From Denitrobaculum tricleocarpae (lineage in GTDB: Bacteria > Pseudomonadota > Alphaproteobacteria > Kiloniellales > Kiloniellaceae): a stretch of DNA of 64,000 nucleotides. Below, piece after piece: positions 17,591 to 62,334 of the stretch. The notes beneath the pieces were generated by a model. It searched no databases. It had not been told where the DNA came from and worked only from the letters and a program-made list of their open reading frames with translations. Position 1 is the stretch's first letter. The number at the start of each line of letters is the position of its first letter. The stretch spans positions 1 to 64,000 of the forward strand of contig NZ_ML660062.1 of NCBI RefSeq assembly GCF_007004665.1. Direction: 5' to 3'. The position numbers were made by a program, and so were the translations under genes.

Positions 17591-20053
17591 CTAGAGATCA
17601 ACCCTCTGCTCTTCGGCGTAGCTTTTCAGGTGACTCCGCAAGCTGTGGTCCGGCAGTTCCAGCCACGACGGCAGCAGATCGCGTAAAGGATCAAGCTTCA
17701 AACTGCGGACCATCGTTTTTATGGGGGCGATACTCGGTGCGGGCATGGACAGACTCTCGAATCCGCAACCGAGCAGGGCCATGGCCTCCAGCGGGTGCGA
17801 AGCCATGTCGCCGCAGAGCGAGAGGCTTACATCCTTTTCCTGTGCCTGATTGGCAACGCTGTGAAGGAGCTTCAGGAAACCCGGCGCAAGCACGTCATAG
17901 CGCCGTGCAAGCCGCGGATTCCCGCGGTCGGCGGCAAAGTGGAATTGAAAGAGGTCGTTACTGCCCACGGACAGGAAGTCGACTTTTTCCAGGAGCGCCG
18001 GCAGTTGCCAGACCAGCGACGGAACCTCCAGCATCAGCCCGACTTTCACCACCGTCGGCAGCTTCTCGTCTTTCTTCGCGGCCCGTTCGATTTCGCGCTC
18101 CAGCAAGGCCCGGGCATCGTCGAACTCGGCAACATCGCTGATCATGGGAAACATGATCCGCAATTCGCGCCCTTCGGACGCCCTCAGCAAGGCCCGGATC
18201 TGCTGCCGCAGAACCGCCGGACGGTCCAGACCGATTCGAATGGCCCGCCAGCCCATGGCCGGGTTCTCGTCCACCTCACCTTGCCAGTAAGGCAACACCT
18301 TGTCCCCGCCGACATCCAGCGTGCGGAAGACGACCGGCTTTCCCTCCGCCTGTTCCACGATCCGGCTGTAGAGCTCAGTCTGTGCCGTCACACCCGGAAA
18401 GGTATCGCGCACCATGAAGGGAATTTCCGTGCGATAAAGCCCGATCCCATCGGCGCCGCTGTCGTGGAGGTGCGGAATATCGATCAGAAGCCCGGCATTG
18501 ATATTCAGGGAAACCCGCTGTCCGTCGGCGGTGACGGGCGGCAGGTCGCGTGTCGCCGCAAACATCTCCTGACGGCGGTCCCGCTCCGCGATCATGCTGG
18601 AGAAGCTCTCCTGAACCTCCTCGTTGGGCCGCAAGAGAACCTGTTCGTTGTCGGCGTCGACAACAACCTGATCACCAAAGCGCACTGAAGTGACGATATC
18701 CCGGCAACGCCCGATCACAGGAATGTTCAGGGCGCGTGCCATGATCACGACGTGAGCCGTCGGCGAGCCCTCCTCCAGCACCACAGCCCGCAAACGCTCG
18801 GCATCGTAGTCCAGAAGCTCCGCAGGCCCCAGGTTCCGTGCTATCAGGACCATATCTTCGGGCAGATCCTGCGTGTCCGTACCCTCGGGATCCAGGAGAT
18901 GATGCAGCAGCCTGTTGCCGAGGTCTTCCAGATCGGAAAGGCGCTCTTTAAGGTAAGGGTCCTTGACCTTTGCCATGCGGGCGCGGGTTGCCACCTGAAT
19001 CTTCTCAACGGCCGCTTCGGCCGTGAGGCCGCTGAGAATGGCTTCATCGATCCGGCCGATCCAGCCTCTATCCTCGGCGAACATGCGATAGACCTCGAGC
19101 ACTTCCCGGTGCTCACCCAGCTCCGCGATGTCAGCGCGCGCCAGAAGGCCGTCAATTGCCCCGCGCATCTCGGCAACAGCCGTGATCAGGCGCCCACGTT
19201 CAACCTCGGGGTCATCGGCAATCACCTGAGAGATCACAATACCGCGTGTATGCGGAACGGCCTGCCCGGTCGCCAGCCCTTCGTTGAGCATCAAACCGTC
19301 CAGGCGCATCGGCCTGCCGCCGCCGGTACCAGCTGTTTCATCTTCCAGCAGGGCGATTTCACCGCCTGCAAAGAGCTCGGCCAGAAGCATGGCGACTGTC
19401 TCGAGCGCTTCGACTTCTTCGTCTGTGTAATTCCTGGAAGTTACATTCTGCACAGCCAGAACGCCGAGCACACGGCCGGCACGCAGGATCGGCACGCCAA
19501 GCAGCGACTGATAGATTTCTTCGCCTGTCTCGGGCCGATAAGCGAAATTCGGATGTTTCTGCGCATCGGACAAGGCCAAGGGCAAAGCCAGCGCAGCCAC
19601 CTGTCCGACAATACCCTCTTCAACATGCAAGCGTGTCTGATGCACAGCTTCAGGCTTCAGACCCATGGTCGCGAAGAGTTCAAGCACATCGCCCGGGCGC
19701 AGGACATAGATGGAGCAGACCTCCGCCACGATATCCTGAGCGATCAGCTTGACGATATTATCGAGTTTGGCCTGGCTACTGCCGCGCTCCTTCATCAAAT
19801 CCCGCAGCAGGCGCAGCAAGCGCCGCGATCCGGCCCACTCATGGGCCCGGCCATCGTGGGCTTTAATGTCCAGGGACTTTGGATCCGGTGTTTTGGTCAG
19901 GCGCTGCGGGCCCGGCGGCAACCGCTCCTCGACAGGCACAGGCGCGCCGGCAGGCGGCTTATCGCCCAGCGGTTCGGGAGTCGTAGAATCGCGCAAGGAT
20001 GCCGATTTTCCCGCATCTTTCTGTGTCTTCGGATTGTGAGGCGGTGCATTCAT
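17591..20053 (-). CDS. ptsP: Nitrogen PTS enzyme I (PEP-protein phosphotransferase PtsP)
   Basis: 820 residues. EI-Ntr takes phosphate from phosphoenolpyruvate and passes it to NPr/PtsO, starting the regulatory nitrogen phosphotransferase chain. Order: a Pro/Lys-rich N-terminal extension; a GAF domain near 80-230 that in homologues senses glutamine; the PTS EI N-terminal domain; the phosphohistidine region TAHVVIMARALNIP near 433; and the PEP-binding TIM barrel ending with LCGDMASHP. The first about 60 residues are poorly conserved, so the start could be further in. lysC lies 44 bp upstream on the same strand, a pairing widespread in alphaproteobacteria. Confidence 0.94.
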   Translation of the reverse strand: MNAPPHNPKTQKDAGKSASLRDSTTPEPLGDKPPAGAPVPVEERLPPGPQRLTKTPDPKSLDIKAHDGRAHEWAGSRRLLRLLRDLMKERGSSQAKLDNIVKLIAQDIVAEVCSIYVLRPGDVLELFATMGLKPEAVHQTRLHVEEGIVGQVAALALPLALSDAQKHPNFAYRPETGEEIYQSLLGVPILRAGRVLGVLAVQNVTSRNYTDEEVEALETVAMLLAELFAGGEIALLEDETAGTGGGRPMRLDGLMLNEGLATGQAVPHTRGIVISQVIADDPEVERGRLITAVAEMRGAIDGLLARADIAELGEHREVLEVYRMFAEDRGWIGRIDEAILSGLTAEAAVEKIQVATRARMAKVKDPYLKERLSDLEDLGNRLLHHLLDPEGTDTQDLPEDMVLIARNLGPAELLDYDAERLRAVVLEEGSPTAHVVIMARALNIPVIGRCRDIVTSVRFGDQVVVDADNEQVLLRPNEEVQESFSSMIAERDRRQEMFAATRDLPPVTADGQRVSLNINAGLLIDIPHLHDSGADGIGLYRTEIPFMVRDTFPGVTAQTELYSRIVEQAEGKPVVFRTLDVGGDKVLPYWQGEVDENPAMGWRAIRIGLDRPAVLRQQIRALLRASEGRELRIMFPMISDVAEFDDARALLEREIERAAKKDEKLPTVVKVGLMLEVPSLVWQLPALLEKVDFLSVGSNDLFQFHFAADRGNPRLARRYDVLAPGFLKLLHSVANQAQEKDVSLSLCGDMASHPLEAMALLGCGFESLSMPAPSIAPIKTMVRSLKLDPLRDLLPSWLELPDHSLRSHLKSYAEEQRVDL

Positions 20054-56548: not shown

Positions 56549-56860
56549 GACCTAATTCCCGACGATCCGGCGCGCGTTTGCTCCTCAAAGCCCGGCGCAG
56601 GCTCCTCAACCCATTTACCCCAACAGTCTCCTGCCCAGCCCTCTCCACGCGCACCCAACGCGCGGCTCTCACCGCTGATGTCACCGGGTTAAGACGAAGG
56701 CTTCGACAGAAGAAACACACAGTGCGGGCCTGTCTAACACAGGCCGGCGCCAGCGTAAAAGCAATCGCGGCAAAGATTCTGTAACAATTCGCGAAAAAAT
56801 GGATCCTGAAAATTCCTCCCCCGTCTCCGGGAGAGTGATGGCCTTGCGTGGAACCTGCAT

Positions 56861-57065
56861 CCGGCCCTCGCCCCCACCCGGCCAGGCCGCTTGGTTTGAC
56901 CAGGTTTCGACGCGTGTCGAAACCGGCACCGGCCCTCACCCCCACCCGGCCACATGTGTGGTTTGGTTAGGTTTCGACATATGTCGAAACCGGCACCGGC
57001 CCGCACCCCCACCCGGCCACCCATCGGAATGATCATGTGGGTGGCCGGGTGGGGGTGCGGGCCGG
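56861..57065. repeat. Palindromic repeat locus 1: units A, B and hairpin unit C
   Basis: Units A (56861-56928) and B (56929-56995) are 67-68 bp. Each begins ccggccctc, has a short CCAC/GTGG-like stem, then ggtttcgac-N4-gtcgaaacc. Unit C (56996-57065) shares the ccggccc(g)cacccccacccgg beginning but is a huge hairpin: 28-bp perfect arms (56996-57023 and 57038-57065) around a 14-nt loop. No open frame runs through it with gene features. It resembles REP/BIME or MITE-like elements. Confidence 0.85.
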
Positions 57066-58596: not shown

Positions 58597-59292
58597 ATGA
58601 GCTCGTCAAACAACGAGAATGAATTAACCACCACCCGCTTTACCGACCGCCTCCGCGACGAATCAGAACCCTTCTGGACCCAGGCCACCACCCACCGCTT
58701 CACCCGGCAGCTCGCGGACGGGACCCTGCCGGACGAAGTTTTCATCCGCTATCTGATCCAGGACTATCACTACGTGGACTGTCTGGCGCAGGCGGTCGGC
58801 TTCGCGGTCGCGCTGGCCCCCGACATGGCCACCCGCCGCCCTCTGGCCGGTTTCCTCTCGGTCCTGACCAACGCCGAAAACGATTTCTTCCTGAAGTCCT
58901 TCGCGCGCCTGGGTGTGGATGAGGCCACCTGGCGCAACACCCCGCCCTCACCTGTTACGCAAGCCATCTCGGAGGCCATCGTCGGCGGCGCCAGCGGCCA
59001 CGCTGGATCAGGCCAATACCCCGAAGCCATGACCGTCCTGCTCTGCTCCGAATGGGTCTACCAGGCCTGGGCCGAGCCGGTCGCCGACGCCCAGCCGCCC
59101 CAGCCACAATACCGGGAATGGATCGAACTGCATGCGACGGCCGAGTTCATCGGCTTCGTGGAGTGGCTACGGGAAGAGACCGACCGGGCCTGCGAGGGAT
59201 TGGATGCAGAGCGGCAGGAGGCTCTGGTCGCGCTCTTCCGGAAGGTGACGGAGCTGGAAGCGGCGTTTTTTGAGGATGCTTTTGGAAGTTGA
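58597..59292 (+). CDS. tenA: TenA-family protein (aminopyrimidine aminohydrolase/thiaminase II-like)
   Basis: 231 residues, all helical. TenA enzymes hydrolyse aminopyrimidines from degraded thiamine for salvage. Asp in LIQDYHYVD (near 56) and Cys near 149 (LLCSEWVYQAW) fit the TenA_C active-site positions, and a Glu near the end (ELEAAFFED) fits the third. The Cys context is unusual, so TenA_E-type chemistry cannot be excluded. It follows thiY after 198 bp with a repeat element between. Likely under the same riboswitch. Confidence 0.88.
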   Translation: MSSSNNENELTTTRFTDRLRDESEPFWTQATTHRFTRQLADGTLPDEVFIRYLIQDYHYVDCLAQAVGFAVALAPDMATRRPLAGFLSVLTNAENDFFLKSFARLGVDEATWRNTPPSPVTQAISEAIVGGASGHAGSGQYPEAMTVLLCSEWVYQAWAEPVADAQPPQPQYREWIELHATAEFIGFVEWLREETDRACEGLDAERQEALVALFRKVTELEAAFFEDAFGS

Positions 59293-59402
59293 GTAAGCTT
59301 GGGACCCACTAGCCGGTGGCGGACCAGATCGGGTTTTGCTGCTTCAAAGGTCCCTCCCAGTCTCCGGAACGCCCCCATAACGTTTCTCGAATTATGCAGC
59401 CC

Positions 59403-59834
59403 TCATTTGCAGTATTTGCAGTTCGGGCACTTCAACAATCTGCGATGCTCTGGGCGCTGGTAAATATGTCCTCTAGGGTTATTTACAATTCTTGGATTTC
59501 GAAAATCATCGTGAAGATTAGTGTCTCTCGAAAAAAGCACTCTAGCGCCTGACACCAACGCAAGCGCAAGTATATGTTGGTCATCAGATTTTACGCCATC
59601 GGGAAGTGTATTTTTTTTGTTTTCCACCAAATCATCATTCACTTCTCTTAATCTTCCAGATTTCAAGAGTTGAATGTATAAACCTCTAAATTTGCACCTT
59701 AACATTTCCTTCTTATGATCATGTCCAGAAACACATCTTATTGTGTCTCTTTGTAGCGCCTCGATTATCGGCTTCGCTGCTTCGGAAGGCCTGATGCACT
59801 CATCTGCTACATTCGCATCAATAATCAGACACAT
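59403..59834 (-). CDS. PIN-domain putative nuclease paired with an ATPase
   Basis: 143 residues. A PIN-like metal site is suggested by IIDANVADECI (Asp 6, Asp 11, Glu 12), SDDQHILALAL (Asp 84, Asp 85) and FSRDTNLHDDF (Asp 104). The pattern matches PIN RNases and toxins. The end carries CPNCKYC, a possible zinc-binding cluster. The gene starts 2 bp after the stop of the ATPase gene, so they are co-translated. Both are clearly AT-rich relative to the window, suggesting transfer. Target and function are unknown; an abortive-infection effector is a reasonable guess. Confidence 0.7.
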   Translation of the reverse strand: MCLIIDANVADECIRPSEAAKPIIEALQRDTIRCVSGHDHKKEMLRCKFRGLYIQLLKSGRLREVNDDLVENKKNTLPDGVKSDDQHILALALVSGARVLFSRDTNLHDDFRNPRIVNNPRGHIYQRPEHRRLLKCPNCKYCK

Positions 59835-59836
59835 AT

Positions 59837-61213
59837 TTAAATTTCCAAGCCCAAAGATCGCATTTCCTCGTCAAGAAAAAACTGTCTATATCCTTTTGGG
59901 GCATTCACCAAATTTCCACTACTATCGATCGATATTTCATGAATAATTACATCGTGGCCAATTCGTTCAAAATACAGAATTCCAACGTCTTTCGGTGACA
60001 ATACAACACCCTCCCTCACTTCCATTCTTATTCTGTCCAGCAAATGATCACTATGAGTTTCAATAAAAATACTGTGCCTTCTCGACTTAGCCATGTGTGA
60101 GAAGAAGCTACCTAATTCTGCCTGTGCTTTAGGATGTAAATGGACTTCAGGTTGCTGAAACAAAAATAACGTTTTTCGATTTGCTCTCAGTATATCGGTC
60201 AGAATGGGCAACGCTTGGCTAACACCGTAGCCCACATCTACGAGATTGGACGCACGTTTCTCCATTTTTACGATGATTTGAAATGGCCCACCTGTGGAAG
60301 CACCAACTTTCTTGACAACGACATCTTGAAACAAACCTGAAGCACGCCCAAACTCGATAAGGCTTTTTCTTATTCGCAGCCATTTGTCAGCATCAAAATA
60401 GTTTAGCTGAGCAAGCACGAAAGGCATGTGGCCGCCATCTGGCGTTTGAGAGATATCCGAAGGATTATAAGTTCTTTCGGGCCTAGAACGAACAGGAGCA
60501 GAGGAATAAACCCCCGACGGCAACAATCTAAGAGCACTTCTATACATACGACCAAGAACTGACATCTCGGATCGAAGCGCTCTTGCATGCCCTTGCGAAG
60601 ACATCACGTCTTCATCGCTCAAGCTCTCAATCTCGTCATACAAAATATTTCTAAGAAAAAACTCTATTATAGACAAATCTAGGTTCCCATAATCTGACGA
60701 CAAAATTGGAAACTCAGGCTCAAAGTCGACAATTTTAGCTGAAGGCAAATTCACCCTAAAATTTGTTCGCTCCTCTGACCGCAATTCAAATCCGTAAGAC
60801 CCAGCGCTAAAAGACACTTCTCGCAAGTGCGGTTGAGATTTTTTATCTGAAAATTCAATAAATAGCTTAAATGGAATCTTCCTGTTTTCTCCATCCTCCT
60901 TGCCAAACAAGTCCGCCTCAACACCTCTACTCCTACTAGCCACTAAAACATCTTCAACTTCAAAAGAAAACGAATCTGCTCTACCGAATCTCCCACCTCT
61001 GTAGTGCGCAATATTTTCGTAGGCCCCCAAGTGGAAAGGCTCTTTATTGAAAGATGCTTTTGATTTTCGATCAAAGAGGTCAAATATAAATCGGGTCGCC
61101 GCCAAAAAGGATGTTTTGCCAGCGCTGTTTTCACCCACAAGCAGGTTAATTGGGCGAACCTCGACAACCTGCTGCTCATGAAAACACCGGAAGTCTGAAA
61201 TTTTAATTTGCAA
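59837..61213 (-). CDS. DUF3696/OLD-like ABC-type ATPase paired with a PIN protein
   Basis: 458 residues. N-terminus IKISDFRCFHEQ, Walker A GENSAGKTS (27-35), a long insertion, then the DUF3696 signature region VDVGYGVSQALPILTDIL, Walker B-like FQQPEVHLHPKAQAEL, and the switch IFIETHSDHLLDRIR. No TOPRIM nuclease domain follows, unlike true OLD proteins. The partner PIN gene may be the effector. TTG 61213 is the start, with GAGGA (complement of 61220-61224) six bases upstream. It is AT-rich with different codon use from flanking genes. A transferred defence module is inferred. Confidence 0.75.
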   Translation of the reverse strand: MQIKISDFRCFHEQQVVEVRPINLLVGENSAGKTSFLAATRFIFDLFDRKSKASFNKEPFHLGAYENIAHYRGGRFGRADSFSFEVEDVLVASRSRGVEADLFGKEDGENRKIPFKLFIEFSDKKSQPHLREVSFSAGSYGFELRSEERTNFRVNLPSAKIVDFEPEFPILSSDYGNLDLSIIEFFLRNILYDEIESLSDEDVMSSQGHARALRSEMSVLGRMYRSALRLLPSGVYSSAPVRSRPERTYNPSDISQTPDGGHMPFVLAQLNYFDADKWLRIRKSLIEFGRASGLFQDVVVKKVGASTGGPFQIIVKMEKRASNLVDVGYGVSQALPILTDILRANRKTLFLFQQPEVHLHPKAQAELGSFFSHMAKSRRHSIFIETHSDHLLDRIRMEVREGVVLSPKDVGILYFERIGHDVIIHEISIDSSGNLVNAPKGYRQFFLDEEMRSLGLEI

Positions 61214-61401
61214 TTTTTATCCTCTTACTTCATTCGCCGGGCATCGATGTATTTACACTGAGCACAATACACGACTCGTATCGTCAAATACACAAACAAC
61301 CGGTGGCAGGTTGCGCTGACCCATTTACACTTGCTTGCCGCCTATGTAATGAGTGTCAGATTGAACTATCCCACCCGGCGCAGCCACGGAGCGATCAGAG
61401 G

Positions 61402-62334
61402 TCACTCCACCACATCACGAAAGAATTCGCTGCACACCAGGGCAACCTCTTTCGGGGCTTCGACCATGGGGACGTGACCGACTTTCTCCATGACGATCTT
61501 TCGGCTGTTGGTGATCTCTCGATGTAAAAATTCGGCGTTGTCGACGTGGAAAATTTTATCCATCGCGCCCCAGAGTATGAGAGTTGGTGTGGTGATTTTT
61601 GGAAGATGCGCCGTTTGATCCAAATCCTGCGCGATATCTTCGGCAATCTTGCGGTTGATGGCGGTGCGTTTGACAAACTCTCTGGCCAAGGCAGAGACCA
61701 TAATGCCGGGGATATAGGGTGGAGCCTCCATACCAATGCGCATCATCGCCCGATAGTCTGAAGCATCGCGCACCTCAAGCATTGGATTGATGCCGGTCTT
61801 TTCCACATGCTGTCGTAACCAGCTCGGGGTTACGTCTGCCCCGGCGGTGTCGATCAGCACCAGGGATGCGACAAGAGCGGGTGATGTTGCGGCGAGCTGG
61901 ATTGCAATGGCGCCGCCCATGGAATTGCCGATCAGATGTGCCCGCTTGATCCCGAGTGCAGCCAAAAACTCTTTGAGCCGCGCCGCCTGATACTGGATGC
62001 CATAGTCCAGCCCAATATCCGAGACGCTTTTGCCATGTCCCGGTAGATCCGGAATGATCAGAGGAAGGCCGCTTTTGAGGTGCTGCGCAAAACGAAGCCA
62101 GGATGTTTTGTCTGCAGCCGCGCCATGCAGCAGGACGAGGGCTTCCGATAAAGCGCCGGACGCGCTGTTCGCGCTGCGGAGGAATTCGACATCGCCAAAG
62201 GAAAGTTGAAGGGAGTCTCTCACCAGACCAGCGCGCCTGGACTCTGCCGCAATCGCTTTTTCCAGGAAAAAATCACCGATGGAATTTAAAAGGGTACCCA
62301 TAGCCGCCAGGATGTTCGTTACTTCATCCCACAT
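61402..62334 (-). CDS. Alpha/beta-fold hydrolase
   Basis: 310 residues. An N-terminal helical/hydrophobic stretch of about 40 residues is followed by a classic fold: LLHGAAADKTSW (oxyanion region), GNSMGGAIA (nucleophile Ser), WGAMDKIF (Asp) and GHVPMVEAP (His). The triad is complete. It resembles lipases/esterases of the MhpC type. The substrate is unknown. GC content is back to the level of the window, so it is outside the AT-rich island. Confidence 0.88.
   Translation of the reverse strand: MWDEVTNILAAMGTLLNSIGDFFLEKAIAAESRRAGLVRDSLQLSFGDVEFLRSANSASGALSEALVLLHGAAADKTSWLRFAQHLKSGLPLIIPDLPGHGKSVSDIGLDYGIQYQAARLKEFLAALGIKRAHLIGNSMGGAIAIQLAATSPALVASLVLIDTAGADVTPSWLRQHVEKTGINPMLEVRDASDYRAMMRIGMEAPPYIPGIMVSALAREFVKRTAINRKIAEDIAQDLDQTAHLPKITTPTLILWGAMDKIFHVDNAEFLHREITNSRKIVMEKVGHVPMVEAPKEVALVCSEFFRDVVE

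Follow-up and report, generated by a model that had tools for sequence, protein, structure and literature searches.

In the window, by which we mean the whole 64,000-nucleotide stretch of DNA that was analysed, a gene encoding an ABC ATPase of the OLD/DUF3696 type is followed on the same (minus) strand by a gene encoding a small PIN-like protein, and the stop codon of the first is separated from the start codon of the second by 2 bp (Table 1). The GC content ranges from 0.39 to 0.48 over positions 59500-61499, against 0.58-0.67 (approximately 60%) in most of the flanking DNA. An earlier description of this segment, made from the letters and the open reading frames (hereafter the sequence-only reading), had presented it as an AT-rich two-gene island, and we confirmed the position of both ORFs, the distance between them and the dip in GC content. 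A Shine-Dalgarno-like sequence, AGAGGA, lies immediately 5' of the TTG start codon of the ATPase gene. The number of sigma-70 promoters predicted was equal to or lower than that obtained with shuffled sequences, with none on the minus strand, and no RNA component such as that of a retron was detected with Rfam at gathering scores.

Table 1. Features of the ATPase/PIN locus, in window coordinates
Feature	Position	Strand	Evidence
Inserted, genus-variable island between the convergent tenA and alpha/beta hydrolase genes	59285..61378	.	blastn against sister species
OLD/DUF3696-type ABC ATPase, 458 aa, TTG start	59837..61213	-	Pfam, AF2 and Foldseek
Walker A, GENSAGKT, residues 27-34 of the ATPase	61112..61135	-	ATPase alignment
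Walker B region, LFLFQQPEVHLHP, residues 349-361 of the ATPase, includes QPEVHLHP	60131..60169	-	ATPase alignment
DUF3696 C-terminal segment, residues 405-453 of the ATPase	59855..60001	-	Pfam PF12476, 7.6e-6, above the gathering score
PIN-family nuclease (predicted), 143 aa, ATG start, begins MCLIIDAN	59403..59834	-	AF2, Foldseek and acidic residues
C-terminal Cys stretch, CPNCKYC, residues 136-142 of the PIN-like protein	59409..59429	-	Alignment of relatives

The limits of the island were obtained from blastn comparisons with sister species, in which homology ends at 59284/59285 and restarts at 61379-61393. Two of these species keep the flanking tenA and alpha/beta hydrolase genes and have different DNA between them, while in a third the hydrolase gene was beyond reach. 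Both G002 and G003 carry other cargo at the site occupied by the pair in the window; in G003, a sister species, this cargo is a dCTP deaminase (PADLOC dCTPase, 1.4e-163). The gap between tenA and the hydrolase gene therefore looks like a hotspot for cargo genes. At the same chromosomal site, locus L046 (6681-8240), from a species of the same genus, has a defence gene for a dCTP deaminase, and HTH and M78-peptidase genes lie close to it. We also observed a tandem array of a 67-bp repeat (2.5 copies) at window positions 56852-57020. In the sister species, copies related to this repeat flank tenA several times and tenA itself is duplicated, with three copies in G003 and a fragment in G002. Tandem or direct repeats that could mark the insertion of the window pair were considered and discarded, as just short, chance-like pairs were found. 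None of the six neighbouring genes of the pair in the window matched a PADLOC defence family.

The assignment of the larger protein is straightforward. It exceeds the Pfam cut-offs for AAA_15 (5.3e-23), AAA_21 (5.5e-19) and DUF3696, the last of these at its C-terminus, and it contains both Walker motifs, as corresponds to an OLD/DUF3696-type ABC ATPase. Residues G27, E28, N29, S30, G32 and K33 of Walker A, as well as Q354, E356, H358, L359 and P361 of the Walker B region, are identical in all nine aligned sequences. The ATPase with Walker A, DUF3696 signature and PEVHLHP that had been recognized by eye is thus supported by domains above the cut-offs and by invariant motifs. The AF2 model (pLDDT 83, pTM 0.84) retrieved with Foldseek the heads of Rad50 and SMC proteins, PtuA (from Septu and from retrons) and GajA.

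For the small protein, Pfam gave only sub-threshold matches (PIN_3, 0.006; PIN, 0.025), and the assignment comes from its predicted structure and its acidic residues. In the AF2 model (8 rows; pLDDT 79, pTM 0.75), strands and helices alternate in the order characteristic of a PIN domain, and the top Foldseek match was the VapC structure 5ecd (E 5e-3, probability 1.00), followed by many more VapC and other PIN structures. Since these E-values are modest, the model makes a PIN fold likely, short of proof. The sequence-only reading had staked its proposal on this fold, and the PIN topology and the VapC top match bear it out. The alignment of relatives revealed that D6, E43 and D85 are present in 17 of 17 sequences and D104 in 16 of 17; judging from the alignment, this acidic quartet is the set expected of a PIN active site. 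The C-terminal cysteine cluster that had also been pointed out does exist in the window copy (KCPNCKYCK) but it is specific to it: the near-terminal C139 is the only one broadly kept (15 of 17 relatives), and with a single conserved cysteine the cluster is not a trait of the family.

Relatives were gathered from genome contigs, genome samples and viral contigs. In all 17 loci with readable upstream DNA, the window included, the ATPase gene lies directly upstream of the PIN gene on the same strand, with gaps between -17 and +11 bp; one further PIN copy (L049) starts at a contig edge and is not included among the 17. The hosts belong to the Alpha- and Gammaproteobacteria, Planctomycetota and Fibrobacterota, and two copies are on viral contigs. 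Two scans of viral contigs with the PIN sequence returned one relative, and these two copies (L024 and L025) were found by scanning with the ATPase; the PIN query gave no match in plasmid and phage records. Weak PIN matches from the genome searches (E > 1e-6) were excluded from the family because none of them has the ATPase: it was absent next to all eight of these generic matches, which resemble ordinary PIN toxins. The pair is rare, being detected in 2 of 399 genomes of the phylum of the window, in 6 of 343 genomes of the phylum of L001 (counting L049) and in 6 of 369 genomes of the class of L002.

The reciprocal search, which covered one sample of 246 genomes and another of 229, detected nine ATPase genes with E <= 1e-80, seven of which adjoin a PIN gene, and the next ATPases appeared at approximately 1e-34; given that the genomes used to seed the alignments are part of these samples, the counts should not be taken as frequencies. 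The two ATPases that have no PIN partner, L094 and the second copy of L003, indicate that this protein may at times act alone, or that these copies are decaying. In the latter (L003, 6571-7938), the Walker B stretch is altered (QSETHLYP) and an HTH/M78-like protein is encoded next. In the tree, the ATPases of the family form one clade with a support of 100/100, apart from HEC-03 and the other DUF3696 ATPases. The distance matrices of the PIN-like proteins and the ATPases were correlated (Mantel r 0.81, or 0.57 when a near-copy was removed; 0 of 10000 permutations). These observations show that the two genes are almost obligately co-encoded and co-diverging, and they provide the conserved pairing across phyla that the sequence-only reading had named as support for its proposal, as opposed to the infrequent co-occurrence that it had named as a refutation.

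The neighbourhoods of the relatives are those that a mobile defence module would be expected to show. The pair is located between HmaB and HmaC in L075 and at the end of a full HmaA-HmaB-HmaC cluster in L067. In L074, it comes after the gene for a type IIG restriction enzyme, and the gene upstream of the pair in L076 is near-identical to that one. In L073, it is part of a Druantia-like island, which also encodes DruA, HerA and type III-like helicases. An integrase adjoins the pair in L002. On the viral contig L024, the pair is flanked by an SPP1-type portal and terminase-like genes, and on L025 it has endolysin/lysis and Rha genes near it. Together with the dCTP deaminase found at the equivalent site of a sister species, the Hma, type IIG and Druantia-like contexts agree with the earlier proposal of a candidate defence system. 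The island of L073 carries, besides its copy of the pair, a second DUF3696 ATPase gene (18797-19901), which is followed by one for a different PIN-like protein and lies beside ThiF/E1-like genes. Another DUF3696-type ATPase is encoded by the P2-EC5 phage (L033, 243-2913; ORF555/ORF333), where its unrelated partner is weakly similar to PD-(D/E)XK nucleases. In the genome samples, other DUF3696 ATPases are likewise followed by further PIN-like or by unrelated proteins, and from these varied partners it seems that partner exchange is general among them.

Considering these results, we propose that the pair is probably a horizontally acquired two-gene module for anti-phage defence, in which the ATPase is predicted to gate the PIN nuclease. 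We see an even chance that the pair represents a distinct and unnamed defence system, present in several phyla and in phages, whose OLD-type ATPase directly restrains a PIN RNase until infection frees it to cut tRNA or mRNA, as a PIN-based counterpart of PARIS. According to this model, the ATPase, as a dimer resembling Rad50 or PtuA, would bind the PIN protein and keep it inactive, taking the part of the antitoxin with no separate antitoxin being needed. A phage trigger, such as DNA ends, an anti-restriction protein or a change in nucleotides, would shift the ATP state of the ATPase, and this change would release or activate the nuclease. The freed PIN protein would then act as an RNase in the manner of VapC, with tRNA or mRNA as its most likely substrates, and the resulting arrest of translation would abort the infection, as presumed for AriB in PARIS. 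RNA is favoured as the target because of the similarity to VapC and, indirectly, because of the RNA ligase encoded beside some HEC-03 loci.

The similarity to VapC, together with the tight coupling of the two genes and their presence on mobile DNA (the integrase at L002 and the phages of L024 and L025), could also suggest a toxin-antitoxin-like maintenance function, in which a VapC-type toxin neutralised by the ATPase would stabilise mobile DNA and would not block phages. However, a small DNA-binding antitoxin such as that of VapBC is absent; the upstream gene is the one for the 458-aa ATPase, to which this role would be left and whose Walker motifs are intact, and the pairs surrounded by Hma, type IIG and Druantia genes do not fit with simple maintenance. 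We therefore view this explanation as unlikely. At L008, one of the generic PIN loci, a small gene of 92 aa occupies the upstream position instead of the ATPase gene. Some PIN-like nucleases are structure-specific DNases, and several of the Rad50/SMC heads matched by the ATPase model were solved with bound DNA. The PIN protein could then be a flap or nicking DNase that a Rad50/RecF-like, DNA-sensing ATPase directs to phage or plasmid DNA, causing interference and not suicide. Yet VapC proteins, the top matches of the fold, cleave RNA, and the RNA ligase gene that follows the pair at distantly related HEC-03 plasmid loci also points to RNA, so we consider a DNase unlikely as well.

The rarity of the pair and the lack of a defence neighbour in the window are compatible with a housekeeping or selfish pair that processes RNA or DNA and hitch-hikes on islands. 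A function outside defence is nonetheless very hard to reconcile with a patchy distribution across phyla, a variable site that is also used by another defence gene, and copies that are embedded in Hma clusters or carried by phages. If, as we favour, the pair is a defence module, the copies within Hma suggest a back-up layer behind restriction. Moreover, if the ATPase gates the PIN protein, the pair would illustrate how a VapC-like RNase can be controlled without a classical antitoxin. The family, which is compact and is now defined by sequence, adds to the evidence for a single ATPase chassis combined with interchangeable nucleases (TOPRIM, HNH and, here, PIN).

Among the named systems, the ATPase of the window is closest to NsnB of Menshen (NsnA/B/C), its top PADLOC match (1.7e-45), but neither the DUF262 protein NsnA nor the OLD-TOPRIM partner NsnC adjoins it, its partner being the PIN-like protein. 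HEC-03, a PADLOC candidate formed by HEC-03A and HEC-03B, likewise consists of a DUF3696-type ATPase followed by a small protein; by eye, HEC-03A, the partner of HEC-03B, is PIN-like (IDTN..E..D..D). In contrast with a true HEC-03 locus (7e-134), the window ATPase matched HEC-03B at 7.2e-26, in third place after NsnB and PDC-M55A, and the ATPases of its family fall in a fully supported clade apart from those of HEC-03. The PIN-like protein had no PADLOC match, including to HEC-03A, and a common origin of the two PINs was discarded as unsupported, since the profile comparison gave a probability of 19% over only 47 columns. The plasmid loci of HEC-03 differ also by an extra gene, for an RNA ligase or an HNH protein. 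On Aeromonas and Azotobacter plasmids (L028, 4382-5620, and L030, 4376-5607), the gene after the HEC-03-type pair belongs to an RNA ligase family, and in Acinetobacter (L035) it is an HNH gene.

PARIS (AriA/AriB) shares with the model proposed for the window pair an OLD-ABC ATPase that gates a separate nuclease, with a presumed abortive logic; however, AriB is a TOPRIM protein whereas the partner here is PIN-like, and AriA was just the fourth-best PADLOC match of the ATPase (1.8e-24). Septu (PtuA/PtuB) is also composed of two genes, for an ABC ATPase and a nuclease, and PtuA was among the structural matches described above, but PtuB is an HNH nuclease and the window partner had no HNH match. 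The pair is also distinct from Gabija, as the 458-aa ATPase ends in DUF3696, shows no TOPRIM match and has no adjoining helicase gene. A further parallel is provided by a survey of OLD-ABC ATPases that are paired with HNH, PD-(D/E)XK or PIN nucleases instead of TOPRIM; these pairs are described from 594 taxa, in the surroundings of BREX and DUF499 systems (PMC12839542, 2026). These dyads likewise include an OLD-type ABC ATPase with a PIN endoRNase, and the survey spans BREX and DUF499 (Hma) loci; the likeness to the window family is one to its class-level text description, from which the general class is already known. The earlier statement that no named system has this exact pair holds in a narrow sense, but HEC-03 is a related candidate and the OLD-ABC/PIN dyads of that survey have to be set beside it. 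Judged against this class-level description, the ATPase/PIN pair appears to be a well-delimited two-gene family without a name.
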